Assembly (NCBI GenBank): GCA_026392155.1
Contig: JAPLCP010000149.1
Coordinates: 1-34,980, forward strand
Origin: Armatimonadota bacterium
GTDB lineage: Bacteria; Armatimonadota; Armatimonadia; Armatimonadales; Armatimonadaceae
Length of the DNA: 34,980 nucleotides
Direction: 5' to 3'
Made by a program: the position numbers and the translations under genes. How positions within the stretch are numbered: the stretch's first letter is position 1; each line of letters starts with the position of its first letter. The notes beneath the pieces were generated by a model. It made no database searches. It had not been told where the DNA came from and saw nothing but the letters and a program-made list of their open reading frames with translations. Below are positions 8,246 through 34,980 of this stretch, piece after piece.

Positions 8246-8273
8246 TTTCGTTTTCAAATCTTCTCTTTAAAGA

Positions 8274-9452
8274 CTAGCCAATCGGAACCGGTGTTGGCTT
8301 AGGCGTCGGCGTTGGCGTCGGTGTAGGCGTCGGTGTCGGCGCCGGGGTCGCTGTCGGCCTAGGCGTCGCCGTCGGTACAGGTGTCGCGGTGGGCACGGGC
8401 GACGGTGTCGGTGTCGGTGTCGGTCTAGGCGTCGCTGTCGGTACAGGCGATGCTGTCGGTACAGGCGTCGCTGTGGGCCTAGGCGACGGTGTCGGTGTCG
8501 GTGTCGGGACCGGCGTCGCGGTGGGCACGGGCGTCGCGGTGGGCACGGCCGTCGGTACCGGTGTGGATGTCGGTACCGGTGTGGGAATCGGGGTCGGTGT
8601 GGGAACCGGGGTCGCGTTGTTGGGCTGGGGGATCAGGTTCGCATCCGTCGGGTAGGGAACGGTCACCGACGAGTAGAGCGCGGAGTTTGCCATGTAGATC
8701 GTGCGTCCCGAGACCAGGTTGACCCGCTTGATGCCATCGGAGCTATCGTTGGTCTGCTCTCTACCGGCGTAGGAGTAGTCGCCACAGACCACCTTGATGA
8801 TCACACTACGCTTGGAGCCGGTCGTTCGAATAAACGAGACCGCGTTCCAGGCAGTGGAGACATTGTTGGTCAGTAGCAGCTGCGCCGTGCGGGCGCCATT
8901 GACATAGCGCCAAAGCCACAGACAGCTGCCGTAGCTCGCATTGGCGGTCCCATTGGGGTTGCCCCGGAAGATCAAGGAGGTATTGGTAATACTCGTGACC
9001 GAGCGGTCCATGGGCTGGAGTGCGCCACTGAGCGTGACCGTGGTACCTGTACCACTCTGAACCGAAGCACTCCCCGAGGCCGGAGCCATGACATACATCG
9101 CGGTATTGAGCTGGCTTGACCAGCCGGCCTCACTCGTGGTGTTGTTGGTGATGTAGTTGCTGGCTGCTCCCAGGGCACTGTTCCAGGTCACTCCTGCCAC
9201 AGCGGTGGTATCGAGTGGCAAGATCACGCCATAGGACTCCTCAATCTCTAGGCTCAAAAACTGCTGGATTCGGCTCGCTTCGCGGGAAGCGATCAGCCCC
9301 GAGCTGAGCTTGGCGACCGTGCGGCCGGAGATGACAAAGAGCTGTATGGCGGCCGTGAAGATTAGCGCCATCAGAGCCGACGAAAAGCCCACCTCGATAA
9401 GGGTGAAGCTTTTCTTGGCCTTTTTAAGAGAAAATAATAGATGTTTTTTCAT
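8274..9452 (-). CDS. PilW-like minor pilin with a long Pro-Thr tail
   Basis: A 392-aa prepilin-like protein. The start at 9452 ([14 protein letters not shown]) overlaps the stop of the upstream pilin gene as TAATG, which indicates coupled translation. The prepilin motif is [20 protein letters not shown]: basic leader, then FTLIE with Glu at +5 and a hydrophobic helix, but with Ser rather than Gly just before the cleavage point. The middle is a beta-rich pilin-like domain. The last ~111 residues are almost only Pro, Thr, Val, Ala and Ser in P-x-P-T steps, ending in KPTPVPIG. Such tails are extended, surface-exposed and often glycosylated. The protein probably sits in the tip complex of a type IV pilus or pseudopilus. 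Confidence 0.85.
8277..8609. repeat. Degenerate hexanucleotide repeat coding for a Pro-Thr tail
   Basis: Read on the plus strand the region is a run of GTCGGT/GTCGGC-type hexamers with GTGGGC, GTAGGC and CTAGGC variants. On the minus strand it encodes the P-x-P-T tail of the PilW-like protein. Codon-level variation suggests an old repeat that is mostly kept at protein level, though short perfect stretches remain and could slip. Confidence 0.85.
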
Positions 9453-10039
9453 TATTGCACGAGAGTTTTTGAGATAAGAGTACTGGCTGAGTAGTGGTGC
9501 ATCTGGGTAACACTGCCCCAACCCCACCACTGGACCACGATGGTTACACGGATAAGGCTATAGGTAGTAACGCCTCCTGAGGTCGTGGCACTGGGGGTAA
9601 AGGGCTCGATAAAGATGTAGCCTCGGGGACGGGTTGCACTGGTCGTGTCCTGAGCACCTAGGGAGGTCATCCCGCCTGGGAAGTACCGCCAGAGGTTGTC
9701 GGTCGTGGTGAACTCGACGGTTGCAGAGACATCTCCATTGGAGTTATTGAGAGGAGAAGTGCCGGTCCCGTCAATAATCTTGAGATTATTCTGGTTGAGC
9801 TTGCTACCTTCGATATTGGAGTAGCCTGCCTCTTGGAGCTGGGCGATTTTATGCATCACCAGCATCTGGGCTTGATTAAACTCAGAGGCATAGCGTACCG
9901 AGCGGGCCATGACCGGCAAGGTCGCACCTATCAGGATGAGCATTGAGCTCAGGATTATCATTGCCAGCATTACCTCGAAAAAGGTAAAGCCACGTCGAAG
10001 ACGTCTTGTTCTGGGACCATGTGGTGTTCGGATAGCCAT
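9452..10039 (-). CDS. PilV-like prepilin
   Basis: A 195-aa protein with a classic type IV prepilin N-terminus: basic leader RTRRLRR, then [20 protein letters not shown], giving Gly at -1 and Glu at +5 of a prepilin peptidase site. The remainder is a short pilin-like globular domain rich in Thr and Ser. It is the first gene of a three-gene minus-strand operon (PilV-like, PilW-like, PilX-like) and overlaps the second by TAATG. No good ribosome binding site precedes ATG 10039. Its role is probably a minor pilin that primes or caps a pilus or pseudopilus. No pilus motor or secretin gene is in the window. Confidence 0.85.
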
Positions 10040-10246
10040 GTTCGTATTGTTAATTTTGGGAGAGAATGGGTATTTGGGTTAGGGCTATTTCGCCTTGGCA
10101 GAATACCTGTTTTTGGTAAGATTACGGGCTATTTTGTGATGTGTTGTAACTATTTGTTAAATACTGTTGATATTTAATGGAGCTTTAAGGGGGTGAGGAA
10201 AGCGCATGGGACGCAAGATTTGGTACAGGGGAGGTATCATAAAGGT
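10040..10246. promoter_or_regulatory. AT-rich divergent promoter region, pilin operon / gmhAB
   Basis: About 200 nt between divergent genes and clearly more AT-rich than its surroundings, especially 10080-10180. It must contain the pilin-operon promoter (minus) and probably the gmhA promoter (plus). I could not single out a convincing -35/-10 pair on the minus strand. On the plus strand TATCAT at 10235-10240 is 6 nt before the gmhA start codon. Confidence 0.45.
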
Positions 10247-10855
10247 ATGAGTGATATCCTTCCTGACACGAGCCTGGGCACCCCCGCCTACGTGTCTGAC
10301 TACCTGAGCAAGCTGGCGGCACTGCTGGCTACGATCGACACGGCACAGGTGGCGACCACTGTCGAGCTGCTCTTTGACTGCTGGCAGAACAACCGCCGCC
10401 TTGTCTTCTGCGGCAACGGCGGCTCGGGAGCCACGAGCACCCACATGGTCTGTGATTTTCAGAAAAATATCTGGCTAGAGGGTGGCAAGCCCTTTGAAGT
10501 CGTCTCCCTCACGGACTCCCCCGCGCTTCTACTCGCTTGGGCCAACGACACGGACTTCTCCAATGTCTTTGCGGGGCAGGCACGCACCTGGCTGCGCAAA
10601 GATGACATCCTGATCGCGATCTCCGGCTCGGGCAACTCCCCCAATGTCTTAGAGGTGGTGAAAGTGGCACGTGAAGTGGGCGCGATCAGTATCGGGCTCT
10701 GCGGCTACGGCGGTGGAAAGCTTGCAGAGCTTGCCGACCATGCGCTGGTGGCGGATCTGAGAAACATGCAGCTTGTGGAAGACATTCACATGATCCTCTG
10801 CCATATTTTGTTTTCCGCGCTCCGTGATCGGATCAAAGGGCTCTTAAGCGCGTGA
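10247..10855 (+). CDS. gmhA: Phosphoheptose isomerase (GmhA-like, SIS domain)
   Basis: A 202-aa SIS-domain protein, the usual length for GmhA, which converts sedoheptulose 7-phosphate to D-glycero-D-manno-heptose 7-phosphate. The start chosen is ATG 10247 with GGGGAGG 12 nt upstream. A longer frame from GTG 10193 adds non-conserved residues. Sugar-phosphate motifs CGNGGSG (about 55-61) and ISGSGNS (about 125-131) are present. Placed against E. coli GmhA from memory, metal/catalytic positions H61, E65, Q172 and H180 read as His66, Asp70, Glu178 and His186, so two acidic-amide positions differ. The stop overlaps the next gene as GTGA. The context with GmhB, HddA and HddC strongly supports a heptose role. 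DiaA-like function is less likely. Confidence 0.85.
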   Translation: MSDILPDTSLGTPAYVSDYLSKLAALLATIDTAQVATTVELLFDCWQNNRRLVFCGNGGSGATSTHMVCDFQKNIWLEGGKPFEVVSLTDSPALLLAWANDTDFSNVFAGQARTWLRKDDILIAISGSGNSPNVLEVVKVAREVGAISIGLCGYGGGKLAELADHALVADLRNMQLVEDIHMILCHILFSALRDRIKGLLSA

Positions 10856-11370
10856 AGCGAGCCGTCTTTTTAGACCGCGATGGTGTGCTCAATGTCTACC
10901 TGCCAGGCGACTACGCCAAGACCCCCGACGAATTGGTGCTATTGCCTGGCGTCGGGGTGAGTGTCCAGAAGCTACGGGACGCGGGCTTTCTGACCGTTCT
11001 GATCTCCAATCAGCAGGGGGTTGCGAAAGGCCTAATGACCCCATCCGACTTAGACGCGGTCACCGCAAAGCTCCGCGCCGAGGTAGCTCTTGATGCGGTC
11101 TACTACTGCCCGCACCTGAAGTCTGAGGACTGCACCTGTCGCAAGCCCAAGCCGGGGATGTTGCTCCAAGCGGCACAGGAGCACGGCATTGATCTCACCC
11201 AGTCGGTCTTTATCGGCGACACCCCCACCGATGCCCAGGCCGCTCTGGCCGCCGGAGTTGCTTTTGTACTCGTCCTCAGTGGTCAGTCCAAGACCGCCGA
11301 GGGCTTTTTACCCGCACCCACGGTTGCTGTCGAAAACTTAGATGCCGCCGTGGAGTGGGTGCTCTCTTGA
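10852..11370 (+). CDS. gmhB: D-glycero-D-manno-heptose-1,7-bisphosphate 7-phosphatase
   Basis: A 172-aa HAD-superfamily phosphatase. The nucleophile motif FLDRDGVLN is at residues 6-14, followed by ISNQQGVAKG (motif II region), the GmhB zinc-binding loop YYCPHLKSEDCTCRKPKPG and the acidic motif FIGDTPTDAQAA. It would remove the C7 phosphate from heptose 1,7-bisphosphate, the step between HddA and HddC. It starts at GTG 10852, overlapping the stop of the isomerase by 4 nt, so the two are translationally coupled. The zinc loop makes GmhB much more likely than a HisB-type histidinol phosphatase. Confidence 0.92.
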   Translation: MKRAVFLDRDGVLNVYLPGDYAKTPDELVLLPGVGVSVQKLRDAGFLTVLISNQQGVAKGLMTPSDLDAVTAKLRAEVALDAVYYCPHLKSEDCTCRKPKPGMLLQAAQEHGIDLTQSVFIGDTPTDAQAALAAGVAFVLVLSGQSKTAEGFLPAPTVAVENLDAAVEWVLS

Positions 11371-21955: not shown

Positions 21956-23044
21956 CTATGGTACCGTATTTTTGCTCCCACTGGAAAGAATCGCCGCGCA
22001 GAGGCTCTCCACCCACTGATCTAGCGTGGCACTCTGCTCGATCCAAAGTCGAGCATTTTTACCCAAGCTCTGCCGGAGCTCGGGGTCGGCTTGCAGGCGG
22101 CGGATCGCGTTTTCCCAGGCTCCTGAATCGCCTACGGGCACGTAGAGACCGTTCTCCCCATCAAAAATGGCATCGGTCTGGCCCTCGGTTTGGGTCACAA
22201 CCACCGCTTTTCCACAGGCCATCGCCTCTAAGATCGCGGTAATCCCTGCCTGGAAATCGTTCTCGTAGAGCGGGACGGCCACGATTGCCGAGGATGCGTA
22301 GAGCTCGCGCAGCTCGCCATACTCGTAGCGGCGAGCCGAGACATTGGTGGGCATGGTGCGCTTGTCTGTCTCGTTGTTGTGCTTGGACCAAGGCGAGGCG
22401 GCAGCGAGGGGGAAGCTCGTGTCGGGGAGGCGCTCAGCGGCGGCAAGTAGCGTCGGGTAGTCGCGCCACTCCAGCCCGGCAGCGCTGACTTGCTTCTCGT
22501 TTTCCGTCACTTCTGGTCGCGGTCGCCAGAAGCGTGTGTCGGCGTGAAAGGGAATTAATCTCAGGCGCTCTGCCGGAATGCCCAGCACGCTCACGCCATG
22601 CTTTTGCTGCGTCGTGGCATAGACAAAGACCGTGTCCATCTCTTGCCAGAGCTTGAGCGTCCCAAAAAACAGCTTCTTCTTGCCCGTCGAGAGCCGGTGC
22701 CCAATGGTCACATGGCCGGGGCGCTTCTTCCCCGAGAGCCGCAGGAGCAGTGCCAGAAACAGCCCGACATTCTCGCCGTTGGTAAAGAGAGTGTTGTAGC
22801 GTTTGCGCCGTCGCCAACCCGCCACCGCAAGGGCGATATCGCGCCCGAGCGTCTTTCGTGCCAGCTTGACCAAGGAGTCTGAGTCGGCCTCCAGTGCGCG
22901 GTAGTCGTAGAGCTCCGCGCACGTGCCCCGCGACTCTAGGCCCGCAGCGAGGGCATCGTAGTCCATAGTAGGGTGCTGGTCGGCAGAGATCGCGGCGGCA
23001 ATGTTTTCTTTACGGTAGCTAGGGATCAGGAGCAGGGTCTTCAT
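21956..23044 (-). CDS. GT-B glycosyltransferase (GT4-type)
   Basis: A 362-aa glycosyltransferase. The C-terminal nucleotide-sugar domain shows the GT4 pattern: SAAGLEWRDYPTLLAAAE, then VPLYENDFQAGITAILEAMA with the E-x7-E arrangement, and CGKAVVVTQTEG. The N-terminal acceptor domain begins MKTLLLIPSYRKENIAAA. ATG 23044 is preceded by GGAGG, which is contributed by a palindromic repeat just upstream. It lies in a run of polysaccharide genes (sugar transferase, WecG-like, two GT-B enzymes), and would add one sugar to the lipid-linked unit on the cytoplasmic side. Donor and linkage are unknown. Confidence 0.87.
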   Translation of the reverse strand: MKTLLLIPSYRKENIAAAISADQHPTMDYDALAAGLESRGTCAELYDYRALEADSDSLVKLARKTLGRDIALAVAGWRRRKRYNTLFTNGENVGLFLALLLRLSGKKRPGHVTIGHRLSTGKKKLFFGTLKLWQEMDTVFVYATTQQKHGVSVLGIPAERLRLIPFHADTRFWRPRPEVTENEKQVSAAGLEWRDYPTLLAAAERLPDTSFPLAAASPWSKHNNETDKRTMPTNVSARRYEYGELRELYASSAIVAVPLYENDFQAGITAILEAMACGKAVVVTQTEGQTDAIFDGENGLYVPVGDSGAWENAIRRLQADPELRQSLGKNARLWIEQSATLDQWVESLCAAILSSGSKNTVP

Positions 23045-23046
23045 GA

Positions 23047-24222
23047 TTACCTCCCCCCCATCCCCCGCCCAGCGGGGGGGATAAGAGGAAATACTTTTTT
23101 GTCCCCCCGCCCGGCGGGGGTTAGGGGGGCAAGCCCTTTGAGACGGGCGAGAATTTGCGGATAGTTCTTGGCGGCATCGTAGCGAGCGAGTGCCTCCTGG
23201 CGAGCCGTACTTCCCAGGCGCAGGCGCAAGCTCTGGTCGGTGAGGAGGTGCTCCAGGGCAAGAGCAAGTGCTTTTTCATCTCCCACAGGAACCAGCTTGC
23301 CCGTCTCGTTCTCGATCACGGCCTCTGGGATCGCCGCCACAGGGGTCGTGATGACCGGAAGGCTGGCGGCCATGGCTTCCAGAACCGCTTGGGGCAGACA
23401 GTCGGCGCGGGTGGGAAAGACAAAGATATCCGCCTCGGCAAAGAGCGTGCGCAGGCGCTCCGAGTTGGGCGTGACACCGTTGTGCACCGTGATGTTTGCT
23501 GTGGGCGCAAGCTCCGTGGCCTGAGTGACCAAGTGCAGGTGTGCCGCTCGACGAACGGGCTCAGGAAGAAGATCAAACGCTGCGAGAAGCGTGTCGCCGC
23601 CTTTTCGGATAAAATCTCCCCCCACAAAGAGCACGTTGAGCGGGGCATCGACAGCACGGGGTTTTCGGAGCGCACGGGCGGAGTCCCAGGCAGCGATATC
23701 CACACCTGGCGGGATCACAAAGATCTTGTCACCAGGCACGCCATAGTCGCAGATCAGGGAGTCTTTGGCCCACTGGCTCCAGGTGAGGAGCCCGCGCGCC
23801 GCCAAGAAGGCTCGCTGGTTGAGTCGAGCTTTCAGCACTTCGAGCCGCGAGTTTCCCGGTGTGTGGCCGTAGTGCGCCCCCAGCCGGTCGTACTGAAGTG
23901 GCGTGGCATCCAGCGAGATCAGTCCCGGCGTCTTTTTGAGCATCCCCGAGGCTAAGAGCGCGGTGACTTGCGTGTGAAAGAACAGCGCATCGAAGCTCTG
24001 ACCACGCAGACCAAGAAAGGCACCTAGCGAGGCGCGGAGCGACCAGTTGGAGCGCACACCAGGGAGCCTTGCCCAAGCTCCGGGTGTGTTGTGGTAGGGC
24101 AGCTCGATTAGCTCTGGCTGGACAAAGAGATCCTGGGCCAGAGCTGCCTGGAGGTTTCTCGCGTGAGTTGTGTGGCCCAGGGAGTGCTCTAGTGCGAAGC
24201 CAATACGAAGAGACGCAGACAT
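23047..24222 (-). CDS. GT-B glycosyltransferase (GT4-type) with repeat-derived C-terminus
   Basis: A 391-aa glycosyltransferase. Seen: MSASLRIGFALEHSLGHTTH at the N-terminus, KIFVIPPGVDIAAW, NVLFVGGDFIRKGGDTLL, and the C-terminal FPTRADCLPQAVLEAMAA with VITTPVAAIPEAVIENETG, all characteristic of the family. Its ATG overlaps the stop of the preceding 128-aa protein gene (TAATG), indicating coupled translation. The final ~25 residues (LTPAGRGDKKVF, PPAGRGMGGR) are encoded by a palindromic DNA repeat and repeat PAGRG twice, so they are probably a non-functional graft on a normal enzyme. Substrate unknown. Confidence 0.88.
   Translation of the reverse strand: MSASLRIGFALEHSLGHTTHARNLQAALAQDLFVQPELIELPYHNTPGAWARLPGVRSNWSLRASLGAFLGLRGQSFDALFFHTQVTALLASGMLKKTPGLISLDATPLQYDRLGAHYGHTPGNSRLEVLKARLNQRAFLAARGLLTWSQWAKDSLICDYGVPGDKIFVIPPGVDIAAWDSARALRKPRAVDAPLNVLFVGGDFIRKGGDTLLAAFDLLPEPVRRAAHLHLVTQATELAPTANITVHNGVTPNSERLRTLFAEADIFVFPTRADCLPQAVLEAMAASLPVITTPVAAIPEAVIENETGKLVPVGDEKALALALEHLLTDQSLRLRLGSTARQEALARYDAAKNYPQILARLKGLAPLTPAGRGDKKVFPLIPPAGRGMGGR
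23050..23130. repeat. Palindromic, REP-like repeat element
   Basis: Two GC-rich hairpins (CCCCCGC 23062-23068 with GCGGGGG 23072-23078, and a like pair at 23104-23120) face each other around an AT-rich spacer (about 23080-23100). Both are flanked by further C7/G6 runs, so the whole unit is roughly an inverted repeat. It overlaps the last ~25 codons of one glycosyltransferase and reaches the ribosome binding site of the next. Its form suggests a dispersed genomic repeat, but no second copy is in the window. Confidence 0.7.
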
Positions 24223-24608
24223 TAGGCCCGAGGATTTGTGCCGGTGAAGTTCTCAAAGGCTGCGGCGGGCTCTTCCAGGGGGGCGGAGCCAACTTCGTCG
24301 CGGGTGAGTAGGTGGGTGATGAGGTGCTCCAGACGGTGCTTTGGGAGGCGGGCCGGGGCGAAGATAAAGACATTCTCGTCAATTTGCAGCAGGCTCATGC
24401 GGCGACGCTCCGTAGTTAGTCCTAGAAAGGTATTAGGAGCAATCTCGCGGCAGATAATCTTGCCATGGCTGGTGCGCACCAACATCTGGCGGTCGTTGGT
24501 AATGGCATGTGCATGGTTGGCGGCAGCCTCGTTGATCTTCCCAATCGGATACTCAAGATCCTCCAGATCAACCGTTGTCGTGACAACGATTTTTTTTGAA
24601 TTGTTCAC
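24222..24608 (-). CDS. Small conserved-looking protein of unknown function in the polysaccharide cluster
   Basis: A 128-aa cytoplasmic protein. I do not recognise the family. It starts at GTG 24608 with AAGGA about 10 nt upstream and begins MNNSKKIVVTTTVDLEDLEY. The middle (MLVRTSHGKIICREIAPNTF, then SLLQIDENVFIFAP) looks like a compact alpha/beta domain, and the end is acidic and Ala/Pro rich. No signal peptide or membrane helix. It overlaps the next gene, a glycosyltransferase, as TAATG, so it is made in step with it and could be a regulator or partner. It is 37 nt downstream of the WecG-like gene. Confidence 0.75.
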   Translation of the reverse strand: MNNSKKIVVTTTVDLEDLEYPIGKINEAAANHAHAITNDRQMLVRTSHGKIICREIAPNTFLGLTTERRRMSLLQIDENVFIFAPARLPKHRLEHLITHLLTRDEVGSAPLEEPAAAFENFTGTNPRA

Positions 24609-24645: not shown

Positions 24646-25530
24646 CTATTTCGGCACGACAGCTTCTGAAGGCTCTGCAGGTGCGGTTGTCATGTTAATC
24701 CGCGTCACGAGGGGACGTGGCTCTTCAATTAGCGGACGCGGTTTGGGCTTTTTTAGTCCCAAGCGGAGTAGACCTGCCTCGGTGACCAAGTGCATCAAGA
24801 GGGGCAAGTCGCGACCAATATAGCGGTGGTACAGACGCTTCGGATCCTGCAGGAGCCTCCAGACCCACTCCATTCCGATGCGCTGAACCAGCCGTGGAGC
24901 ACGAGAGACCATGCCCGCTGCCATCTCAAAGCTACCACCAACCCCAATGCTCACGGGAACGCCTAGCTGCATTTTATGTCGGGCGATCCACTTCTCTTGC
25001 TTAGGGGCACCCAGACCAACCAGTAGAATATCCGGGTTCGCCGCCTTTAAAATCTGCGCGATCTTTGCCTGCTCCTCAGGGGTATCAAAGGTCTCTTTCG
25101 GAGGGCAGTAGGTACCACAAACTTGCACGCCCGGGAAGCGCTCCTCCAGAACCTTCTTCGCTGCCTCCGTTGCTCCAGGAAGGCCACCTAAGAAGAAGAG
25201 CTTAAGGCCCGTCCAGGCCGAGGCGCGGCAGAGCTCATAAAGTAAGTCGCTCCCTGCCACACGCTCGACTAAGTTGGCTGTATCGGGGCGAAGTTTTGAG
25301 AGCCAGACAATGGGCATACCATCGGCGAGTACCAGAGCCGCACTGGAGTAGATCGCCCGAAACTCGGCATCTTGTTTTAGCAAAGCCAGGTGATCCATAT
25401 TGCCTGTGCAGATATGCTGGGGGACGTTAGCCTTCTGCACGAGCTGCAAGATGCACTCTACAGCCTGCGTCATAGTTATATTGTCAAACCGGGTTTCTGC
25501 AATAACAACTTGTTTATTAAGAGGCGGCAT
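24646..25530 (-). CDS. WecG/TagA/CpsF-family glycosyltransferase (GT26)
   Basis: A 294-aa membrane-associated glycosyltransferase that typically adds the second sugar (often N-acetylmannosamine or its uronic acid, or glucose) to a lipid-linked first sugar. Family motifs are clear: TGNMDHLALLKQ, LVLADGMPIVWLSKL, KLFFLGGLPGATEAA, LLVGLGAPKQEKWI and SIGVGGSFEMAAG, with RIGMEWVWRLLQDPKRL near the end. The start at 25530 (MPPLNKQVVIAE) is supported by GGAG upstream. The longer frame to 25596 adds unconserved residues. It follows the initiating phosphoglycosyl transferase by 96 nt on the same strand, the expected order of action. Confidence 0.93.
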   Translation of the reverse strand: MPPLNKQVVIAETRFDNITMTQAVECILQLVQKANVPQHICTGNMDHLALLKQDAEFRAIYSSAALVLADGMPIVWLSKLRPDTANLVERVAGSDLLYELCRASAWTGLKLFFLGGLPGATEAAKKVLEERFPGVQVCGTYCPPKETFDTPEEQAKIAQILKAANPDILLVGLGAPKQEKWIARHKMQLGVPVSIGVGGSFEMAAGMVSRAPRLVQRIGMEWVWRLLQDPKRLYHRYIGRDLPLLMHLVTEAGLLRLGLKKPKPRPLIEEPRPLVTRINMTTAPAEPSEAVVPK

Positions 25531-25626
25531 TTCTATAGTTCTCCGAAAAATTACTGAGGGGGAAGCCAAGCAAATTCCATGCCGAAGGGACAACAAAAGT
25601 GCTAAAGTTAAAAAATCTAATAAAAA

Positions 25627-26289
25627 CTAGTACGCTCCATCTCCTTTAAGGATCGCAGGGATCGCTCGTAGGAGAATCGAGAGGTTTAGCCAAAAAGAGC
25701 GTGTCCGAACATACTCCAGATCTAGTGCGATCCACTCCTCGAAGGTGAGTGTGGAGCGGCCCATTACTTCGCGGAGGCAAATGAGCCCAGGAGTGACGGA
25801 GAGTCGCTCTATGGGGTAGTTGTCATAGCTCTCGATCTCGCTTGGAAGATGCGGGCGTGGCCCCACCAAGCTCATATCGCCACGGAGAACATTCCAGAGC
25901 TGGGGCAGCTCGTCTAGGGAGTAGCGTCTCAGAGTCCGCCCAATTCGGGTAATGCGGGGGTCGTTCTTCATTTTGAAGATGGGACCCGTGGCCTCGTTTT
26001 GTGCCTGGAGGTTCTTTTTTAAGGTTTCCGCATGGGGAACCATGCTGCGAAACTTATAGAAAGGAAAGCACTTGCCCCCTTGGCCGACACGCTGTTGGGA
26101 AAAGAGAATGGGACCACGATCCTCTACCCAGACGAGGGCAGCAATGGTTCCAAAAACCGGAGCCAGAACAAGCAGTGCTCCTGCGGATACCACAATATCC
26201 AGGGCACGGTTCAGGGGCTCGCCCTTTTTCACGCTCTCTTTCGAGGGAATTTCCATAACCACAGACAGCTTAACCATTCGTCTTAACAT
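25627..26289 (-). CDS. Initiating phosphoglycosyl transferase (bacterial sugar transferase)
   Basis: A 220-aa monotopic sugar transferase of the WbaP/PglC type, which starts repeat-unit assembly by moving a sugar 1-phosphate onto undecaprenyl phosphate at the inner membrane. A single hydrophobic segment (ALDIVVSAGALLVLAPVFG, about residues 30-48) is followed by the catalytic core: FYKFRSM, DPRITRIGRTLRRYSLDELP, QLWNVLRGDMSLVGPRP and TPGLICLREVMGRS. The size is that of the minimal class, without the extra membrane helices of WcaJ/WbaP. The start is either 26289 or ATG 26277: AGGAG is only 2 nt from the first and 14 nt from the second. It is the first gene of the minus-strand arm of the cluster. 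Confidence 0.94.
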   Translation of the reverse strand: MLRRMVKLSVVMEIPSKESVKKGEPLNRALDIVVSAGALLVLAPVFGTIAALVWVEDRGPILFSQQRVGQGGKCFPFYKFRSMVPHAETLKKNLQAQNEATGPIFKMKNDPRITRIGRTLRRYSLDELPQLWNVLRGDMSLVGPRPHLPSEIESYDNYPIERLSVTPGLICLREVMGRSTLTFEEWIALDLEYVRTRSFWLNLSILLRAIPAILKGDGAY

Positions 26290-26720: not shown

Positions 26721-28049
26721 ATGAGAAATAAACAAGCAACACGTTACATGATCGCACTGGGAGCCGTTGTCAGCAGTCAGTCCGTGTGGGCCAGTGGGAT
26801 TGTCCCAAGCTCTGCCGTTATCCCCATCGTGCTTGGACAGCAGGCGCTGCGTAAACCTGAGTCACGCCCCGTGCTCCTCCCTTCAACTCCTGTGTCAAAA
26901 AACACGGCTCCTTTGCCCGTGGCTCCTACGCGCTACAAAGTGCGCTCTGGCGATTCCCTTGAGATCAAGATCATGGGACGACCAGAGCTGACCCAGTCCA
27001 TGACCGTCGCCCCGGATGGCACCATTATCTACCCCTATGTCGGTGAGGTCGCCGTGGCAGGCGACTCCGTGATGCAGATCATCAGCAAACTCAAGATCGG
27101 CCTGAAGCGCCAGTTCGAAAATCCTCAGCCTATCGTCTCCGTGCTCAAGCGCCAGATGGGAGAGGTCTCTATTCTGGGGCCGGTGAAAGAGCCCGGTAAG
27201 AAAGAGCTAGGAGATGACTGGCGTGTGCTCAATCTGATTGCCGAGGCAGGTGGGATGACAGTCGAGCGCACGGAGTTCGTGACGATCCGCTTGGTGCGCC
27301 GTGGTGGGCAAGTGACCTTTAACGTGGATCCTGTCCAGCTCCTTGGCTCGGGCGATCCTAATCTCAACTACCTGCTTGAAGACGGTGACCTCTTGGTGAT
27401 TCAAGAGCGCGACAAAAACGAGACCATGGTGCAGGTTCTGGGAGAAGTGGGCAAGCCCGGCTATGTTGTCGCACCCCGAGATGGCTCTCCCCTTGCAGCC
27501 TTGGCGGCGGCAGGTGGCTCCAGTAGCAAGGCTGCTCTCTCCCGAGCAAGCATCCGCCGTGGATCGGGTGGCACCCCCATTCCTGTGGATCTCACGAACC
27601 CGGATCGCCTTCCGCAGAGCCTCCAGCTTGGCCCTGGTGACACCCTGGTGATTCCTGCCAATGTCAGCCAAGTGTTCCTGGCGGGCAGTGGCGTCATCAA
27701 GCCCGGCATGGTGGAGCTACCCGACAAAATTCAGCCCACGATCTACTGGGCGATCCAGCAAGCGGGTGGCACGACTCAGGAGGCAGATCTTAAGAACGCC
27801 TCAATCACACGCCTCGCACCCAACGGAGCTCCGATTACAGAGAAAATTGACCTGGAGAAAGTGATGAAGAACCGCACTGCTCAAGGTAAAGATGCCGAGG
27901 TCGCTGCCCGGCTGAACCGAATGCTCATGCCGGGTGACATTCTTGAGATTCCCACAAAAAGACGGCGCTCGGGTGGCTTTCGGTTAGGATTCAATGAGCT
28001 GGCACTGGGGCTCTCAACGTTTCTGATGCTCCGTCAGGCGGGTAATTAG
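26721..28049 (+). CDS. Polysaccharide export protein (Wza-like, SLBB domains)
   Basis: A 442-aa exported protein. A signal peptide (MIALGAVVSSQSVWA-S) is followed by a Pro-rich linker, then the Poly_export domain from about residue 72 (YKVRSGDSLEIKIMGRPEL, VAPDGTIIYPYVGEV). After it come three SLBB-type segments, each ending near a G-D-x-L-x-I motif: LLEDGDLLVI, LGPGDTLVIP and LMPGDILEIP. It would form the outer channel for polysaccharide export. Unlike E. coli Wza there is no lipobox cysteine. The C-terminus has a hydrophobic stretch that may be a membrane helix. AGGGAG stands 8 nt before ATG 26721. It is the first gene of the plus-strand arm and the Wzz-like gene starts 1 nt after its stop. 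Confidence 0.92.
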   Translation: MRNKQATRYMIALGAVVSSQSVWASGIVPSSAVIPIVLGQQALRKPESRPVLLPSTPVSKNTAPLPVAPTRYKVRSGDSLEIKIMGRPELTQSMTVAPDGTIIYPYVGEVAVAGDSVMQIISKLKIGLKRQFENPQPIVSVLKRQMGEVSILGPVKEPGKKELGDDWRVLNLIAEAGGMTVERTEFVTIRLVRRGGQVTFNVDPVQLLGSGDPNLNYLLEDGDLLVIQERDKNETMVQVLGEVGKPGYVVAPRDGSPLAALAAAGGSSSKAALSRASIRRGSGGTPIPVDLTNPDRLPQSLQLGPGDTLVIPANVSQVFLAGSGVIKPGMVELPDKIQPTIYWAIQQAGGTTQEADLKNASITRLAPNGAPITEKIDLEKVMKNRTAQGKDAEVAARLNRMLMPGDILEIPTKRRRSGGFRLGFNELALGLSTFLMLRQAGN

Positions 28050-28050
28050 T

Positions 28051-29580
28051 ATGTATCGTCGGACAAACATTCTCTATCGCGTGGTAGATGCCCTCTTTCG
28101 GAACCGTAACTTGGTTCTGATCACGATGCTCTGTGTGGCAGTTCCGGTGGCGCTTCTGCTGATCTTCAAGGCCAAGGGGTACACGGCCACAGCGGCGATT
28201 CGCATTGCTTCCGAGGGTGATGGGATGAAGACTCTCGCCGGAGGTGGACTCAACACCGATCAGCTCGGCTGGAAGAGTCCTTCCGAGGTCCATGTCGCTA
28301 ACCTCACCACCTTGTTGGTAGATGCCAAAGAGGGGGGATTTGTCGACGATGTCTTCAAGCGTGCGGCACTCACGAACCCTATCTCACTGGCACCGGGCGT
28401 AGACGATAAGCGTGTGGGAGCTTTCTTAAAGTCCATCTCGATGAAAAACGAGCAAGATAAGCTCTTCTCTATCAGCATGACCTGGGACAATCCTGAGGAG
28501 TGTAAAAAGCTTGTTCAGGCAGTCCAGGAGCAATATATCGACGAGCAAGTAAAGGCAAAACAGCGAGCGTCCGAAAGCTCTGCACTGTTTCTGAAGGGCC
28601 AGATTGATCAGCAAGAGCAGCGAGTTAATGCGGCAACCATGGCGCGAGAGATCTTTCGTAAGAAGCACCCCGAGATTGGCCCTACTTCTCACGAGCAGGC
28701 ACTCGACTATATCCAGATGCTCCAGGAGCGTCTCCGCCGTGACCGTGCCATTGTCGCAGAAGGCGGCGAGGGCGCACTGCTTCCCCGAACTGAGAGCAAG
28801 TACATCGAGAGCGAGGGTGACCCCGCTCCCACCTTCAACCTGGGGGATACACCGGCACAGAAGCACCTGATGGAACTGCAAGACAAGCGTAACCTGCTCA
28901 CCAGTGGAGCCGGAGCCATGCGGAAAGATTCAGATGAGGTGCGTGCGCTGGATCGCCAGATTGACCAGGCGCGGCTTGATCTTGCGCGAGAGCGCCGCCA
29001 GAAGCCTGTCGGAGGGGGCACCAAGCGCCGTGTGCTCAACCCACTCTACGCGGAGATGATGAGCGAGTCTAATCGCTCCAAGCTCACCACACGCTCGGCA
29101 AAGGCAGAGATCGCGGAGATCACGAAGCAGATCGCGGCGTTGCAGCTCCAGCTCAAAGAGCTACCCAAGCTTCAAAATGAGATGGAGAAGCTCGATATCC
29201 GAGTCAACTCGGAGCAGGACAGCCTTGGGGTACTTCGCAAGAGCTACAGCGCTGCTCTCTCTACCTCCAACTTGGAAAAAGAAAAGGCCAGTCAGAACCT
29301 CAAGCCTGTGGGTCAGGTGGTTGCCGTCAGCCTCTCAGGAACCAAGAAAAGCATCACCATGGGGTTTGTGAGCCTGCTGCTGGGAGCCGTTGTGGCGGGC
29401 CTAGTCGTGGCGCTACGGGAGTGGTCTGATCCGACGATTCGCTATGAGACGGACATTGAGCAGGTGCTGGACATCCCTGTCCTAACAGGCCTGCCAGATA
29501 CCCGCGCGGTCCTCGCTCCCAAAAGCGTAAACAGCAGGTCGAAGAAAAGTCGGGCGCTTCTGCCCTCACTGGATAACTAA
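28051..29580 (+). CDS. Polysaccharide chain-length determinant (Wzz/GumC-like)
   Basis: A 509-aa inner-membrane protein with two transmembrane segments, near residues 23-40 (LVLITMLCVAVPVALLLIF) and 430-450 (ITMGFVSLLLGAVVAGLVV), and a long periplasmic coiled-coil region between them (QIDQQEQRVNAATMAREIF, further helices to about 400). This is the polysaccharide co-polymerase layout. After the second membrane segment there is only a short cytoplasmic tail (ETDIEQVLDIPVLTGLP, the usual junction to a kinase domain), so the ATPase is encoded separately by the next gene. It controls chain length and links synthesis to the export channel. Confidence 0.9.
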   Translation: MYRRTNILYRVVDALFRNRNLVLITMLCVAVPVALLLIFKAKGYTATAAIRIASEGDGMKTLAGGGLNTDQLGWKSPSEVHVANLTTLLVDAKEGGFVDDVFKRAALTNPISLAPGVDDKRVGAFLKSISMKNEQDKLFSISMTWDNPEECKKLVQAVQEQYIDEQVKAKQRASESSALFLKGQIDQQEQRVNAATMAREIFRKKHPEIGPTSHEQALDYIQMLQERLRRDRAIVAEGGEGALLPRTESKYIESEGDPAPTFNLGDTPAQKHLMELQDKRNLLTSGAGAMRKDSDEVRALDRQIDQARLDLARERRQKPVGGGTKRRVLNPLYAEMMSESNRSKLTTRSAKAEIAEITKQIAALQLQLKELPKLQNEMEKLDIRVNSEQDSLGVLRKSYSAALSTSNLEKEKASQNLKPVGQVVAVSLSGTKKSITMGFVSLLLGAVVAGLVVALREWSDPTIRYETDIEQVLDIPVLTGLPDTRAVLAPKSVNSRSKKSRALLPSLDN

Positions 29581-29599
29581 GGAAGACGAGAAGAAAAAC

Positions 29600-30430
29600 G
29601 TGATTATCCGTAACCCCGATACCCATCCGCTCCCTAAGGACGAAATGCTCGAATCTGGAGCGATGGAGCGAGGCGCTGTCTCGCTGGCTCCCAACGTGAC
29701 TGTGGTACCCTCTGAGGCGCTACGACGGGTTCATGTGGCCATTGAGCGAACCGATGCCGACTTTGCACAGCTCCATGCCGCCATGGAGTGGCAGCTTGCC
29801 GAGTGTACTAATACCAACCACTGGGACGATGCCGCGGAGCACCTGACCGACCCGCTTCGGGACATAGATAATGTCTTTGGGATCACCAGCGCGGTGCCGG
29901 GCGAGGGCAAGACCACGATTGCGATGCACCTTGCGTTTAGCATCGCACGGAACAGTGGCCGAAAAGTCTGCTTGATTGATCTGGGGCTTGGCGACAATGA
30001 GATCTGCCGCCGCATTGGTGTGCGCACTGAAAAAGGGCTCATCAATGTGCTTGAAGGAGACGACTACGTTATCCGAACCCTTCAGCTCTCGGACTGCGGT
30101 GACCTCTCGGTGATGCCTGCCGGGAAGCTCCCTCGCAATCCCAATAAAGCCGCACGCTCCGCCGCTGTCACGGAGATTATCGCGGCGGCTCGTGAGATCT
30201 ACGACACGGTTATTGTGGACCTGCCTGCCGTCTCGACGGGCAACGCTCTGCCGATTGCCGAGCATCTCGATAAAGTGATGCTGGTTGTCTGCTCAGGAGT
30301 GACGCCCAAAGATATGGTCCAGCAGGCCGTCGATCGGCTCGGACGCAAGCGGGTGCTTGGTGTGGTGCTGAACCGCATGAAGTCTTCGATGCCCTACAAG
30401 ATTCAGCAGTTCTTCCGAAAGGTCGCTTAG
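29600..30430 (+). CDS. CpsD/CapB-like ATPase, tyrosine-kinase family without a tyrosine tail
   Basis: A 276-aa cytoplasmic ATPase that would pair with the Wzz-like protein, as in split BY-kinases. Starts at GTG 29600. The first ~85 residues are a linker helix region (ALRRVHVAIERTDADFAQL). Walker A is SAVPGEGKTTIAMHLA at about 96-110. The A' motif reads CLIDLGLGDN, with the first Asp but not the usual second one. The Walker B-like motif is TVIVDLPAV. The C-terminus (MKSSMPYKIQQFFRKVA) has one Tyr and lacks the Tyr cluster that BY-kinases phosphorylate. It may be an ATPase that drives the co-polymerase without autophosphorylation. Confidence 0.85.
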   Translation: MIIRNPDTHPLPKDEMLESGAMERGAVSLAPNVTVVPSEALRRVHVAIERTDADFAQLHAAMEWQLAECTNTNHWDDAAEHLTDPLRDIDNVFGITSAVPGEGKTTIAMHLAFSIARNSGRKVCLIDLGLGDNEICRRIGVRTEKGLINVLEGDDYVIRTLQLSDCGDLSVMPAGKLPRNPNKAARSAAVTEIIAAAREIYDTVIVDLPAVSTGNALPIAEHLDKVMLVVCSGVTPKDMVQQAVDRLGRKRVLGVVLNRMKSSMPYKIQQFFRKVA

Positions 30431-30439
30431 GAATCCAGA

Positions 30440-31762
30440 ATGAGTGAGCTTTATACGGCATTTACCTATACCTGCCTCACAGGCTGGATGGTGCTCGGGA
30501 CCGCAACCCTAGGAAGCACTGTCTACTTGTCGGAGCTGATGGGCCGTGCCGCTATTGTGCAAGACCGGCGACAGCGCACGACGGCCTGTCTCTTAGCAGA
30601 GCAGCAGCCTCGATTGGTTATCGTCATTCCCGCTCACAATGAGTCGGTTGTGATCCGCTCCACGCTGGAGAGCCTGCTGGCGCAGACCTACTCGGCCTTG
30701 CACTTTGAGACCGTGGTAGTGGCAGACAACTGCTCCGATAACACAGCGAGCCTAGCTCGTGATGCAGGTGCGACCGTCTTGGAGCGCTGCAATCCGGAGG
30801 AACGAGGGAAAGGCTACGCCTTGGAGTGGGCCATGAAGCGGCTTTGGACACGCGAGCAAAAGCCCGATGCGGTCGTGATCATAGATGCGGATACAAAAGC
30901 GGCTCCCAATTTTGTTGCCGTGATGGCACAAGAGCTCTTTGGCGGCGTGGCTCCTGAGAGCTGGCCGACGCATCGCAAGGCAGTTCAGGGACGCTACGGG
31001 GTGCTCAATGGCGCGGAGTCATGGCGGGCAGCGCTCATGGAGGGGGCTTTTGAGCTGGTGAACCATGTCAAGCCTCTGGGACGGAGCCATAAGGGATTCA
31101 CGGTTGGCCTGAAGGGCAACGGCATGGGCTTCACACGAGCCGTGCTCGAAACCACTCCGTGGAGCGGCAGTAGCATCACCGAGGATATCGACTACGGCCT
31201 CAACTTGCTTCTCAAGCAGGGGATTGTGGTTGACTATGCCCCCCAAGCCATTGTGCGAGCCCAGATGCCCAACACGAGCCAGCAGGCGACCTCGCAACGA
31301 GCGCGCTGGGAGCAGGGACGCTACCGGCTTTTGCGGCAGCGCGCTCCCCAGCTTTTTCTCGCGGGTCTCCAGAGACGTGATGCACGTCTTATGGATGCTG
31401 GACTTGATCTCCTCATTCCCCCACTTGCGGAGCTGGCGGCCTTTCACGCCGCCTGGGCAGGTCTGACTCTCCTCTGTCTGAGACTATGGATTCTGCTGCC
31501 CGTCTGGGCACTGCTGGTGCCTTTTTCCTTGGTGCTCTACGGTCTCTATATCTTTGGTGGGCTCAAGGTCTCGGGAGCACGCCCTGAGGTGTATAGCGCA
31601 CTGATTCGTGCGCCTTTTTATGCTCTCTGGAAGTTTGCTCTCTATAGTTTCATGAAGCTCAAGGGGGGGAAGAAGACCTCCCAAGAGTCACCGGAGTGGG
31701 TGCGAACCGAGCGGATGCCAATAGGCGATGAGTCTCAGCGTCTGCTGGAGGATGCCGCGTGA
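30440..31762 (+). CDS. Membrane glycosyltransferase, family 2, with QxxRW-type motif
   Basis: A 440-aa inner-membrane glycosyltransferase. An N-terminal membrane helix (CLTGWMVLGTATLGSTVYL) precedes the GT-A domain: LVIVIPAHNESVVIRSTL, VVVADNCSDNT, IIDADT (DxD, about residue 150), the acceptor-site TED near 248 and QRARW near 286. Two further hydrophobic segments lie near 345-385. QxxRW is the motif of processive beta-glycosyltransferases such as cellulose and hyaluronan synthases, though non-processive enzymes also carry versions of it. AGGA stands upstream of ATG 30440, and the stop overlaps a 45-codon gene by GTGA. It may make the backbone or a beta-linked step of the exported polymer. Confidence 0.9.
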   Translation: MSELYTAFTYTCLTGWMVLGTATLGSTVYLSELMGRAAIVQDRRQRTTACLLAEQQPRLVIVIPAHNESVVIRSTLESLLAQTYSALHFETVVVADNCSDNTASLARDAGATVLERCNPEERGKGYALEWAMKRLWTREQKPDAVVIIDADTKAAPNFVAVMAQELFGGVAPESWPTHRKAVQGRYGVLNGAESWRAALMEGAFELVNHVKPLGRSHKGFTVGLKGNGMGFTRAVLETTPWSGSSITEDIDYGLNLLLKQGIVVDYAPQAIVRAQMPNTSQQATSQRARWEQGRYRLLRQRAPQLFLAGLQRRDARLMDAGLDLLIPPLAELAAFHAAWAGLTLLCLRLWILLPVWALLVPFSLVLYGLYIFGGLKVSGARPEVYSALIRAPFYALWKFALYSFMKLKGGKKTSQESPEWVRTERMPIGDESQRLLEDAA

Positions 31763-31896
31763 ACCTGGTGATCGGAATCGTCTTCATGACGACTTTGATG
31801 GGGCTCTTTGTGCCACGCTGGCAGACCCGGCACTGGGTTTTTCTAGGCGGCTGGGTGATCCTGATGGTGGCGTTTTCTTATCTTAAGTCGCGTTAG
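31759..31896 (+). CDS. 45-aa two-helix membrane protein
   Basis: A small open frame starting at GTG 31759 inside the stop of the glycosyltransferase gene (GTGA). Two hydrophobic segments (LVIGIVFMTTLMGLFV and WVFLGGWVILMVAFSYL) flank a short basic turn (PRWQTRHW), and it ends LKSR. The overlap with the upstream gene, the membrane-protein composition and its filling of the whole gap before the GH44 gene support a real gene. It may be a small subunit or regulator of the GT2 synthase. No family is known to me. Confidence 0.65.
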   Translation: MNLVIGIVFMTTLMGLFVPRWQTRHWVFLGGWVILMVAFSYLKSR

Positions 31897-31920
31897 ATTC
31901 TTTAGGTTAGGTTAAGTGAG

Positions 31921-34293
31921 ATGTTTACAACTATGGCAGCAACTCCCGTTCGAGAATTAAGTGAGGAAGATCGTCGCCGCCGTGCTCAGGCACGTGCGGC
32001 ACGTCGTCGTCGTGAGGAAACAGATAAGAAACGTCTTCGTAAAGAACGAATCACCTTTGTTCTTCTGGGAAGCGTCGGGAGTGTCGCGGTTTTAGGGGCT
32101 GTCTGGGGGATAAAGAAAATCCATGCGGGTGGTGGCGTGCGCGAGACTGCCAAAGGTATCGTCAAGAGCTTTGCCGCCACAACAGGAATCGGCCCGCAAG
32201 GCATGGTTCCCGTTGCACCCACCGAGCGTGCCGATGAGCCTATTCTGGTCTACCGCGATGGGCTTGGCGAGGGCTGGGAAGACTGGTCTTGGGCCACTCA
32301 TGATAAAGCCTCAGTGGCAATGGCCGCTAACGGCATCAACGGTGTCTCGATGACTCTCAAGGGGAGTGAGGGGCTCTACTTCCACCACACGGCACTCCCT
32401 GCCAATGGCTATGGCACCCTGGAGTTTCTCTACAAAGGGACCCCCAATGCCGTGATGGTGACGGTCTTTGATGAGTCCAACAAGCCCCGCCGTCAGCTCA
32501 CGCTGGATCAGTATATTGTCAATGGTGCCGAGGGGCTTAAGCCCAATTGGCGCAAGATCCGGGTTCCTCTCAAGGCAATGGGAGTGGGCAACGGAGAGAA
32601 GATAAGCGGTGTGGTTTTCCAGTGCGCTATCTCGACGGCAAGTGGTGAGGTTGGCTTTGATGATATCTACCTGATGCCCGATACCAGCTTGCCGGAAGCA
32701 CCCAAAGCCCTGACAATTCCCGTTGCGGTTGATGCGCAGGCAGAGAAGCGCCCCATCAGTCCGTATATCTATGGCGCTGCCCATGCGAGTAAACCGGAAG
32801 CGGAGGCACTGGGGCTGACCCTCAACCGCTGGGGAGGTAATCCCAACTCGCGCCACAACTGGGTGAGCAATTTCTGGAACTCGGGAAGTGACTGGGAGTT
32901 TCGCAATCACGCGGGGGAGAAAGCGTTCACGACACCCGGTGGGGCTGCCGATGGGTTTGTACAAGGCAACCGTGATCTAGGGATTGCCAGCTACCTGACC
33001 GTGCCAACACTGGGCTGGGTCGCCCGTAGCGGTGATACTGCCGCTAAATCGGAGAACGTTCCCTGGAACACGGGCCCTGGTGTCTCGGGCTGTGATGGCC
33101 CGGTTGCAGGCTACGACCCGGCAGCAAATCGCCAGCGTACTAGCGTGCGCTCCATGGCACGCAAGGGGCGGGCTTTTGAGCAGAATCCCAAGCCTGGTAC
33201 CACGGTCTACCAAGACGAGTGGGTGGCGCACTTGGTCAAGGCCCATGGCAATGGGGCAGGCAGTGGCGTGCGCTACTACGCCATGGACAACGAGCCCGAT
33301 CTCTGGTCTTTTACCCACCGTGATGTTCACCCTGCACAGATGGGCTACGACGATGTGTTGAAGAACTTCACGGAGTATGCCACCGCTGTGAAAGACGTCG
33401 ATCCGACTGCTCTGGTCGCTGGGCCTGCGGTCTCGGGATGGACTAGCTACTTCTACTCAGCGCTCGATAGGGGCAGTGACAACTTCCGTACGGGAGCGGA
33501 CCGTCAGGCACATGGGGGAACGGCCTTTATCCCGTGGTTCCTCAAGCAGGCGCGGGCATTTGATGTCAAGCGTGGCAAGCGGACACTGGATGTCTTAGAC
33601 ATTCACTACTACCCACAGGGCGAGAATATTTACAGCGATGCCAAAGATCCCGCGACCCGTAACCTGCGAATTCACTCTGTGCGAAGCCTCTGGGATGCGA
33701 ACTACCGCGATGAGTCCTGGATCGCTAACTCGGGTGATGGCCCCACGGTCAAGCTGGTACCTCGGATGAAAGAGTGGATCGCGCAGAGCTACCCTGGGAC
33801 AAAGCTCGCTATCGGGGAGTGGAGCTTTGGAGCTGAGGGCGATATCAGTGGTGGCTTAGCGGCAGCCGAGGCACTTGGGGTCTTTGGAAAAGAGGGTGTG
33901 GACATCGCCTGCTTCTGGACACGCCCCAAGGAGTTCACGCCTGCCGCCGCTGCCTTCCATCTCTTCCGACGGCCCGCTCCGGGGCAGTCAGGCTTTGGGG
34001 ACATGGCCTGCAAGAGCACCTACGAGCAGAACGAGCGTCTGGCAGTCTTCTCGGCCATCGAGAGCAAGACGGGCGCACTGACACTGGTGCTCATCAATAA
34101 AACTCCCCAAGCGACGATCACGGTGCCTCTGAGCCTTCAAGGGCATGATGGGGGCGCTACCAAGCTCTGGCGGTTCTCCGCAGCAAAGCCCAATCAGCTT
34201 ACGGAAGAGCCTGCTCCAAGAATCAAGAGCGGAAAAGCAAGCATGAGCCTGCCACCCTACTCCGCGACTCTCCTGCGAATCGGGGGGAACTAG
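31921..34293 (+). CDS. Membrane-anchored glycoside hydrolase family 44 enzyme
   Basis: A 790-aa type II membrane protein. A highly basic cytoplasmic start (RRRRAQARAARRRREETDKK) leads into one membrane helix (FVLLGSVGSVAVLGAVWGI, about residues 43-61), placing the rest outside. Residues about 100-265 look like a carbohydrate-binding beta-sandwich (GYGTLEFLYKG, EVGFDDIYLMP). From about 285 the GH44 domain follows: RPISPYIYG, LNRWGGNPNSRHNW, then the acid/base Glu458 in YYAMDNEPDLW and the nucleophile Glu633 in LAIGEWSFG. Their spacing (175) is close to that in Clostridium Cel44A (from memory 173). A C-terminal beta domain closes the protein. GH44 enzymes are endo-beta-1,4-glucanases and xyloglucanases. 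Here it sits in a synthesis and export operon. ATG 31933 is an alternative start. Confidence 0.9.
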   Translation: MFTTMAATPVRELSEEDRRRRAQARAARRRREETDKKRLRKERITFVLLGSVGSVAVLGAVWGIKKIHAGGGVRETAKGIVKSFAATTGIGPQGMVPVAPTERADEPILVYRDGLGEGWEDWSWATHDKASVAMAANGINGVSMTLKGSEGLYFHHTALPANGYGTLEFLYKGTPNAVMVTVFDESNKPRRQLTLDQYIVNGAEGLKPNWRKIRVPLKAMGVGNGEKISGVVFQCAISTASGEVGFDDIYLMPDTSLPEAPKALTIPVAVDAQAEKRPISPYIYGAAHASKPEAEALGLTLNRWGGNPNSRHNWVSNFWNSGSDWEFRNHAGEKAFTTPGGAADGFVQGNRDLGIASYLTVPTLGWVARSGDTAAKSENVPWNTGPGVSGCDGPVAGYDPAANRQRTSVRSMARKGRAFEQNPKPGTTVYQDEWVAHLVKAHGNGAGSGVRYYAMDNEPDLWSFTHRDVHPAQMGYDDVLKNFTEYATAVKDVDPTALVAGPAVSGWTSYFYSALDRGSDNFRTGADRQAHGGTAFIPWFLKQARAFDVKRGKRTLDVLDIHYYPQGENIYSDAKDPATRNLRIHSVRSLWDANYRDESWIANSGDGPTVKLVPRMKEWIAQSYPGTKLAIGEWSFGAEGDISGGLAAAEALGVFGKEGVDIACFWTRPKEFTPAAAAFHLFRRPAPGQSGFGDMACKSTYEQNERLAVFSAIESKTGALTLVLINKTPQATITVPLSLQGHDGGATKLWRFSAAKPNQLTEEPAPRIKSGKASMSLPPYSATLLRIGGN

Positions 34294-34294
34294 C

Positions 34295-34980
34295 GTGGTG
34301 AAGAGACGACGACAGGAGCAGGTCTACCAGCCGACAAACGTCCTAGGCCTTCGTGAGACAAAGAGGCGGCAGCATCTTCAGCAGACCCTTTTAGGGATTT
34401 TTGCAGGACTACTCTCACTGAGTGCAGGAGTGTCCTATGTGTTGGTTGAGCCAACGACACTCTTGGTACCTATTCTGATACTGAGCGTGACTCTTCTTCC
34501 TGCAATCCTATGGTACTACCCAAGGCTGGCCTTATATGGATTCTTTAGTTCTGCACTTCTCTTTGAGGTTTTTCAGCAGATAAAAAGCGGGGAAGGCTTA
34601 ACCGATGCTGTTCCCTTTTTCTGGAATATCAACACGATGTTTCAGAGCTATCTTGGCACGAATCCTAAAGTCGCTCCGATGAATTTTTTTGAGCTGGTTT
34701 TGATGATCTTCGCGGGAGTGACTCTACTTCGTTTTGCCACACATCAGCGAGTTCATATTCGTTGTGGCTCTCTATTTTGGCCGATTCTAGGGTACTTGGG
34801 GTTTGTTGCTGTTGGCTGGCTCAATGGAATGGCAACAGGGGGTAACTTTAATGAGGCTCTTCAGGAAGTTCGTGCACAGGTCTATTTCGGGGTTGCTTAT
34901 TTTTTGTCTGTTAATGCTGTCAAGACAAAAGAAAATATTGATAAATTGATATGGATTACTTTCTTATGTATAGTTTTTAA
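34295..34980 (+). CDS. Polytopic membrane protein, O-antigen polymerase/ligase-like (5' part, runs off the window)
   Basis: An open frame starting at GTG 34295 (or GTG 34298), 1 nt after the GH44 stop, and still open after 228 codons at the window edge. A basic cytoplasmic start (VKRRRQEQVYQPTN, KRRQHLQQ) is followed by at least four or five hydrophobic segments (LLGIFAGLLSLSAGVSYVL, LVPILILSVTLLPAILWYY, FFELVLMIFAGVTLL, FWPILGYLGFVAVGWL, FGVAYFLSVNAV). The stretch RAQVYFGVAYFLSVNAVKTKENIDKLI resembles in style the middle of O-antigen ligase/polymerase family proteins. Its place in the operon fits Wzy. Codon use becomes distinctly more AT-rich along the gene. Confidence 0.7.
   Translation, partial: MVKRRRQEQVYQPTNVLGLRETKRRQHLQQTLLGIFAGLLSLSAGVSYVLVEPTTLLVPILILSVTLLPAILWYYPRLALYGFFSSALLFEVFQQIKSGEGLTDAVPFFWNINTMFQSYLGTNPKVAPMNFFELVLMIFAGVTLLRFATHQRVHIRCGSLFWPILGYLGFVAVGWLNGMATGGNFNEALQEVRAQVYFGVAYFLSVNAVKTKENIDKLIWITFLCIVF

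Follow-up and report, generated by a model that had tools for sequence, protein, structure and literature searches.

The window analysed here, a stretch of 34,980 nucleotides that forms contig JAPLCP010000149.1 of an Armatimonadota genome (GCA_026392155.1), carries a Wzx/Wzy-dependent exopolysaccharide (EPS) locus that includes a gene for a membrane-anchored protein of glycoside hydrolase family GH44. We read this locus, with a probability of about 0.75, as homologous to the eps locus of Myxococcus xanthus and its EpsB-like GH44 protein as a tethered endo-beta-glycanase that cleaves the cell's own EPS. The locus is a relative of a known Myxococcus system; the newer item in it is a 45-residue membrane protein, termed TM45 here, encoded just upstream of the GH44 gene, which together with the recurrence across phyla deserves most attention. 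The original prediction had described positions 26721 to 34980 as a candidate undescribed, GH44-dependent system for a beta-1,4-glucan-like polymer. All genes named in it were verified as open reading frames at the positions listed below, and its gene assignments hold, while novelty and dependence on GH44 do not.

Scans of the window proteins with Pfam and NCBIfam identified the genes likened to wza, wzz and cpsD as encoding an OPX protein, a PCP and a BYK-like ATPase, followed by a family GT2 glycosyltransferase and the GH44 protein; between 26721 and 34980, only TM45 and a cut Wzy received no support from these scans. The window is the complete contig C73 of a 4.77-Mb genome in 228 contigs, and the contig end falls inside the Wzy gene, which is therefore cut by the assembly and not truncated biologically. 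On contig C225 of the same genome, the rest of Wzy comes first, and Wzx, two hexapeptide acetyltransferases, a GT4 and a GT2 of EpsD type come after it. In the sister genome G001 the same gene set lies on a single contig, together with an EpsC-type serine acetyltransferase that was not found on C225. Full-length Wzy of G001 matches Wzy_C (PF04932, 7e-12) and NF041870 Wzy_EPS, bearing out the proposed polymerase, and Wzx of G001 matches PF01943 at 2e-22. On the opposite strand of the window are a short PHPT, a WecG-type glycosyltransferase and two GT4s. Because PHPT, the WecG-type enzyme, OPX, PCP and BYK are found in the window, and Wzy, Wzx, the acetyltransferases and EpsD on C225, as in G001, the two contigs together encode a full Wzx/Wzy-dependent EPS pathway. 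The genes of the locus in the window are as follows.

21956..23044, minus strand: GT4 glycosyltransferase GT4b; Pfam Glycos_transf_1 4e-17; 85% identical and syntenic in G001
23047..24222, minus strand: GT4 glycosyltransferase GT4a; Pfam Glyco_trans_1_4 2e-23; best NCBIfam TIGR03088 1e-20, EPS_EpsE 1.1e-20
24222..24608, minus strand: 128-residue protein without Pfam match, restricted to this genus; homologue (81% identical) only in G001; inside the divergent EPS gene cluster
24646..25596, minus strand: WecG/TagA/CpsF glycosyltransferase, EpsA-like; PF03808 7e-59; best NCBIfam NF041872 EPS_EpsA 1e-50, under its cut-off
25627..26289, minus strand: PHPT initiating transferase; PF02397 7e-62; TIGR03025 263 bits, NF041877 EPS_EpsZ 250 bits
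26721..28049, plus strand: OPX outer-membrane polysaccharide export protein, Wza/EpsY-like; PF02563 4e-19, SLBB 3e-21
28051..29580, plus strand: PCP (Wzz-type copolymerase) with an EpsV-like role; TIGR03007 4e-23; Wzz 0.002, under cut-off; two transmembrane (TM) segments
29600..30430, plus strand: BYK/CpsD-like ATPase, separate from PCP; TIGR03018 1e-27, TIGR01007 5e-26
30440..31762, plus strand: membrane GT2, EpsU-like, with DxD, TED and QRARW; NF041865 EpsU 4.5e-79; AlphaFold2 model and fold comparison
31759..31896, plus strand: TM45, 45-residue microprotein with two TM segments; profile matches in 29 Armatimonadota genomes; dN/dS; GTG start overlapping the GT2 stop
31921..34293, plus strand: type II membrane-anchored GH44 protein, EpsB-like; PF12891 6e-58; NF041873 EpsB 1e-104; PDB 3ii1 1e-100
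34295..34980 (contig end), plus strand: N-terminal part of the Wzy polymerase; 65% identical to Wzy of G001; rest on C225

The PHPT is reduced to 220 residues, comprising the catalytic part and one TM segment, in comparison to the 459 positions of the EpsZ model. By eye, the BYK-like ATPase has a Walker A motif and no C-terminal tyrosine cluster.

A search for M. xanthus itself among the genomes yielded none that passed the EpsB cut-off; the comparison with this species therefore rests on NCBIfam models, on a related myxobacterial locus (L224) and on published work. For the EpsA, EpsB, EpsU, Wzx, Wzy, EpsC and EpsD proteins of the window or G001, the best NCBIfam matches are the M. xanthus EPS models; for the PHPT, EpsZ ranks closely behind the best match. 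Shared with the eps locus (EpsB, MXAN_7450; EpsU, MXAN_7422) are PHPT, Wzx, Wzy, PCP, OPX, the EpsU-type GT2, EpsA- and EpsD-type glycosyltransferases and GH44, and its serine acetyltransferase has a counterpart in G001. The Armatimonadota locus differs in its short PHPT, its separate BYK-like ATPase and TM45, and in the position of the GH44 gene, which lies between TM45 and Wzy here whereas it adjoins epsA in M. xanthus. M. xanthus EpsB was already known as a glycosyl hydrolase of a Wzx/Wzy EPS locus (PMC7484181), and NF041873 places it in GH44; the system can therefore not be called undescribed. The literature we found on GH44 in EPS loci consists of M. xanthus papers, which name EpsB a glycosyl hydrolase without giving the family. 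A 2007 analysis named Chloroflexi as the source nearest to EpsU and included eps genes in its list of laterally acquired genes (PMC2129111), which is consistent with the EPS loci that we found in Chloroflexota.

Some observations weigh against so close a relationship. EpsB scores 351 bits against a NCBIfam equivalog cut-off of 1250, and EpsU 266 against 700, both far too low to support strict orthology; in addition, some GH44s on the EpsB branch of the GH44 tree (L190, L227) have no EPS genes in the stretch examined. EpsD of G001, to which the copy in the window's genome is 79% identical, does exceed its cut-off (435 versus 370 bits). Since only EpsD passes this narrow limit, equivalog status is confined to it; judged from sequence, the locus is homologous to eps, and its other proteins are not to be filed as equivalogs.

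Assignment of the EpsB-like protein to GH44 is beyond doubt. It scores 197 bits with PF12891 against a cut-off of 25.1, and a phmmer comparison with the Cel44 structure 3ii1 gave 1e-100. The ten best PDB matches of its AlphaFold2 model (mean pLDDT 87.8, pTM 0.82) are all GH44 structures, with a Foldseek value of 8e-59 for 3ii1. A basic N-terminus and a single TM helix (residues 46-64) precede a beta-sandwich (108-253) and the GH44 domain (about 263-787), which contains the catalytic pair Glu458 (DNEP) and Glu633 (GEW); both the anchor and the two glutamates had been predicted correctly. In a 32-row alignment, all 27 EPS-locus members keep both glutamates, and a single stand-alone GH44 has lost one of them by an exchange of Glu for Gln. 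This protein (L198, 9324-11480, minus strand) is encoded outside an EPS locus in Chloroflexota, and with Gln at the position of Glu633 it is probably inactive. Fold and catalytic residues are common to the window protein and the endoglucanases/xyloglucanases CelM2 (3ii1), Cel44A (2e0p) and Cel44C (2ykk); the window protein differs from these in its N-terminal TM anchor and beta-sandwich, its place in an EPS operon and its clade. Instead of a TM segment, many EPS-linked GH44s of Chloroflexota, Burkholderiales and myxobacteria show, by eye, lipobox-like N-termini, as do some stand-alone GH44s. A loop motif, GYDPxxN...TS, was considered as an EPS marker and dropped as not clean enough (16 of 35 EPS rows, 2 of 37 stand-alone rows).

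A profile built from nine EPS-locus GH44s and run on 291 genomes splits 19 Armatimonadota genomes (at least 797 bits) from the remaining GH44s (at most 583 bits). Wzy adjoins GH44 in all 19, and PCP, BYK, the EpsU-type GT2 and WecG are usually present as well. Near the other Armatimonadota GH44s, where flanks were long, none of these EPS markers was found. EPS-linked GH44s also occur in Chloroflexota, in the myxobacterial locus L224, where PHPT, OPX, PCP, EpsU, GH44 and WecG lie within about 10 kb, and in about 20 species of Pandoraea, Paraburkholderia and Burkholderia, in Robbsia and in two Telmatospirillum. No OPX was found in the Chloroflexota loci, as expected for single-membrane cells. 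Thus, the combination of a Myxococcus-type EPS locus with GH44 is not confined to myxobacteria and recurs in Armatimonadota and Chloroflexota, and GH44 additionally belongs to EPS loci of Burkholderiales and Telmatospirillum. In the Pandoraea and Paraburkholderia/Burkholderia loci (L099-L118, L126), OPX and GH44 share a neighbourhood that is conserved among the species, and PCP, WecG and PHPT are close by; our literature search returned nothing on this arrangement.

In a GH44 tree of 99 sequences, EPS linkage was scored on 72 rows and needs six changes over these. For the EPS label of the group table, 7 changes are needed, compared to a mean of 28.9 after shuffling, and none of 500 shuffles was as low. 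All 18 rows of the Armatimonadota clade with the window GH44 (support 87) are encoded in polysaccharide operons, and this clade is separate from the stand-alone GH44s of the same genomes. As the Burkholderiales/Telmatospirillum group lies separately on the tree, the sequences suggest that the association of GH44 with EPS loci probably arose more than once.

Ten further Armatimonadota genomes contain a like operon (PCP, BYK, the EpsU-type GT2, TM45 and Wzy in most) that has no GH44 at that place; in three of them (G015, G068, G074) the GH44 profile gave weak matches or none genome-wide. As a type, the pathway is thus not GH44-dependent, and GH44 is an accessory of it and not part of its core. 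Since its presence needs six changes over the 34 rows of a GT2 tree, the gene appears to be gained or lost readily. The recurrence of such loci makes the role of EpsB accessible to comparative testing, with loci that have or lack GH44 inside one family as a natural contrast.

In the proposed pathway, the PHPT would load the first sugar onto the lipid carrier, and the WecG-, GT4- and GT2-type enzymes, including the EpsU-like membrane GT2, would extend the repeat. Wzx would then flip the repeat, Wzy together with PCP and BYK would polymerise it, and OPX would export the chain; we infer this assignment of steps to the individual enzymes. The GH44 protein, tethered at the outer face of the inner membrane, would cut nascent or stray EPS and may thereby set chain length or clear the periplasm. 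Action on the cell's own polymer, which the original prediction had also proposed, is the best inference for a true GH44 that is membrane-tethered and whose clade is encoded in polysaccharide operons. The enzyme is thus presumably active on its own EPS, which would then contain a beta-1,4-glucosyl-type bond. Periplasmic hydrolases or lyases are also part of other EPS systems, namely the GH8 enzyme BcsZ, the GH39 enzyme PslG and AlgL. Common to all is an enzyme that cleaves a polymer and is encoded together with the genes for making that polymer, whereas the enzyme here belongs to an unrelated family, is membrane-tethered and is part of a Wzx/Wzy pathway.

The GT2 enzyme could instead be taken for a synthase that polymerises and extrudes a beta-1,4-glucan, with GH44 in the role of GH8 BcsZ, and the backbone originally proposed was of this kind. 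Its motifs are indeed present and, save for T/V in the first position of TED, conserved in 19 relatives (D149xD151, E248D249 of (T/V)ED, Q286xxR289W290), and the structurally known GH44 enzymes cleave beta-1,4-glucans. The AlphaFold2 model of the GT2 (pLDDT 90.8), with one N-terminal TM segment and C-terminal membrane helices, superposes on BcsA with Z 25.3 (rmsd 3.9 over 376 residues) and on hyaluronan synthase with Z 24.3, but about as well on the mannosyltransferase PcManGT (Z 25.0; 345 residues). As processive synthases and this smaller mannosyltransferase fit the fold alike, neither the modelled fold nor the motifs establish that the GT2 is a processive beta-glucan synthase, and the genes around it argue against this. 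The locus contains PHPT, WecG, several glycosyltransferases, Wzx and Wzy; the best family of the GT2 is EpsU (NF041865, 266 bits), from a Wzx/Wzy pathway, whereas the CelA model reaches 22.5 bits against a cut-off of 699; and neither PilZ nor BcsB or BcsC was found in the Pfam and NCBIfam scans of the locus proteins. We therefore rejected a synthase-type system on gene content and regard it as very improbable, and the part of the original prediction that had the GT2 make a beta-1,4-glucan-like backbone falls with it. For M. xanthus, the Gal-1-P transferase activity of EpsZ (PMC7484181) likewise argues against a pure glucan.

It is just as improbable that the GH44 is a common scavenging endoglucanase, secreted and by chance encoded beside the EPS operon. 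Its catalytic domain shares 34% identity with CelM2 (3ii1), and several Armatimonadota carry stand-alone GH44s, but the anchored, uniformly EPS-linked clade is distinct from such paralogues of the same genomes, and the gene keeps its place directly ahead of Wzy in many genomes. A different function of the tethered enzyme, in which it remodels and does not degrade, either as a transglycosylase joining chains or as a release factor freeing EPS from Wzy/PCP, also seems unlikely, marginally less so. GH44 is a retaining family, so that transglycosylation is chemically possible, and both the gene position immediately before Wzy and the membrane tether would suit this role. Cleavage of the cell's own EPS by the tethered GH44 is the interpretation we favour.

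TM45 comprises 45 residues with two predicted TM segments. Its reading frame opens with GTG, and its first 4 bases overlap the stop of the GT2 gene. In Pfam and NCBIfam, no family scored above cut-off. With a TM45 profile, matches of E about 5e-6 or better came from 29 Armatimonadota genomes, comprising all 19 that have an EPS-type GH44 plus 10 more (Fisher 7e-23 for the co-occurrence, ignoring relatedness). Wherever the surroundings of a match were read, it lies in an EPS operon near EpsU, BYK, WecG, GH44 or Wzy. TM45 is also present in three Chloroflexota loci and was not found in the myxobacterial (L224) or Burkholderiales loci. In the informative pairs, dN/dS amounts to 0.06, 0.12 and 0.39, i.e., silent changes outnumber replacements on a per-site basis. 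By these sequence comparisons TM45 is a conserved microprotein family under purifying selection, which lies outside every Pfam and NCBIfam model and is apparently undescribed so far; its position suggests that it may work in the EpsU/Wzy step. More tentatively, and at somewhat less than even odds, TM45 might serve the EpsU/Wzy machinery of Armatimonadota and Chloroflexota as a hitherto undescribed subunit, e.g., a chaperone or regulator of Wzy or EpsU, and the EpsB-type GH44 an editing enzyme recruited repeatedly across several phyla. If true, some Wzx/Wzy systems would possess a dedicated chain editor with a cellulase fold.

Elsewhere in the window, a nucleotidyltransferase, a GHMP kinase, a SIS isomerase and a HAD phosphatase (4372-6368 and 10193-11370) resemble, by eye, the GDP-heptose set HddC/HddA/GmhA/GmhB. 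Judged from the translations, this set is interrupted by pilin-like genes: at 6374-10039 (minus strand) lie three proteins of type II secretion or pilin-type appearance, and a long Pro-Thr repeat closes the one at 8274-9530.

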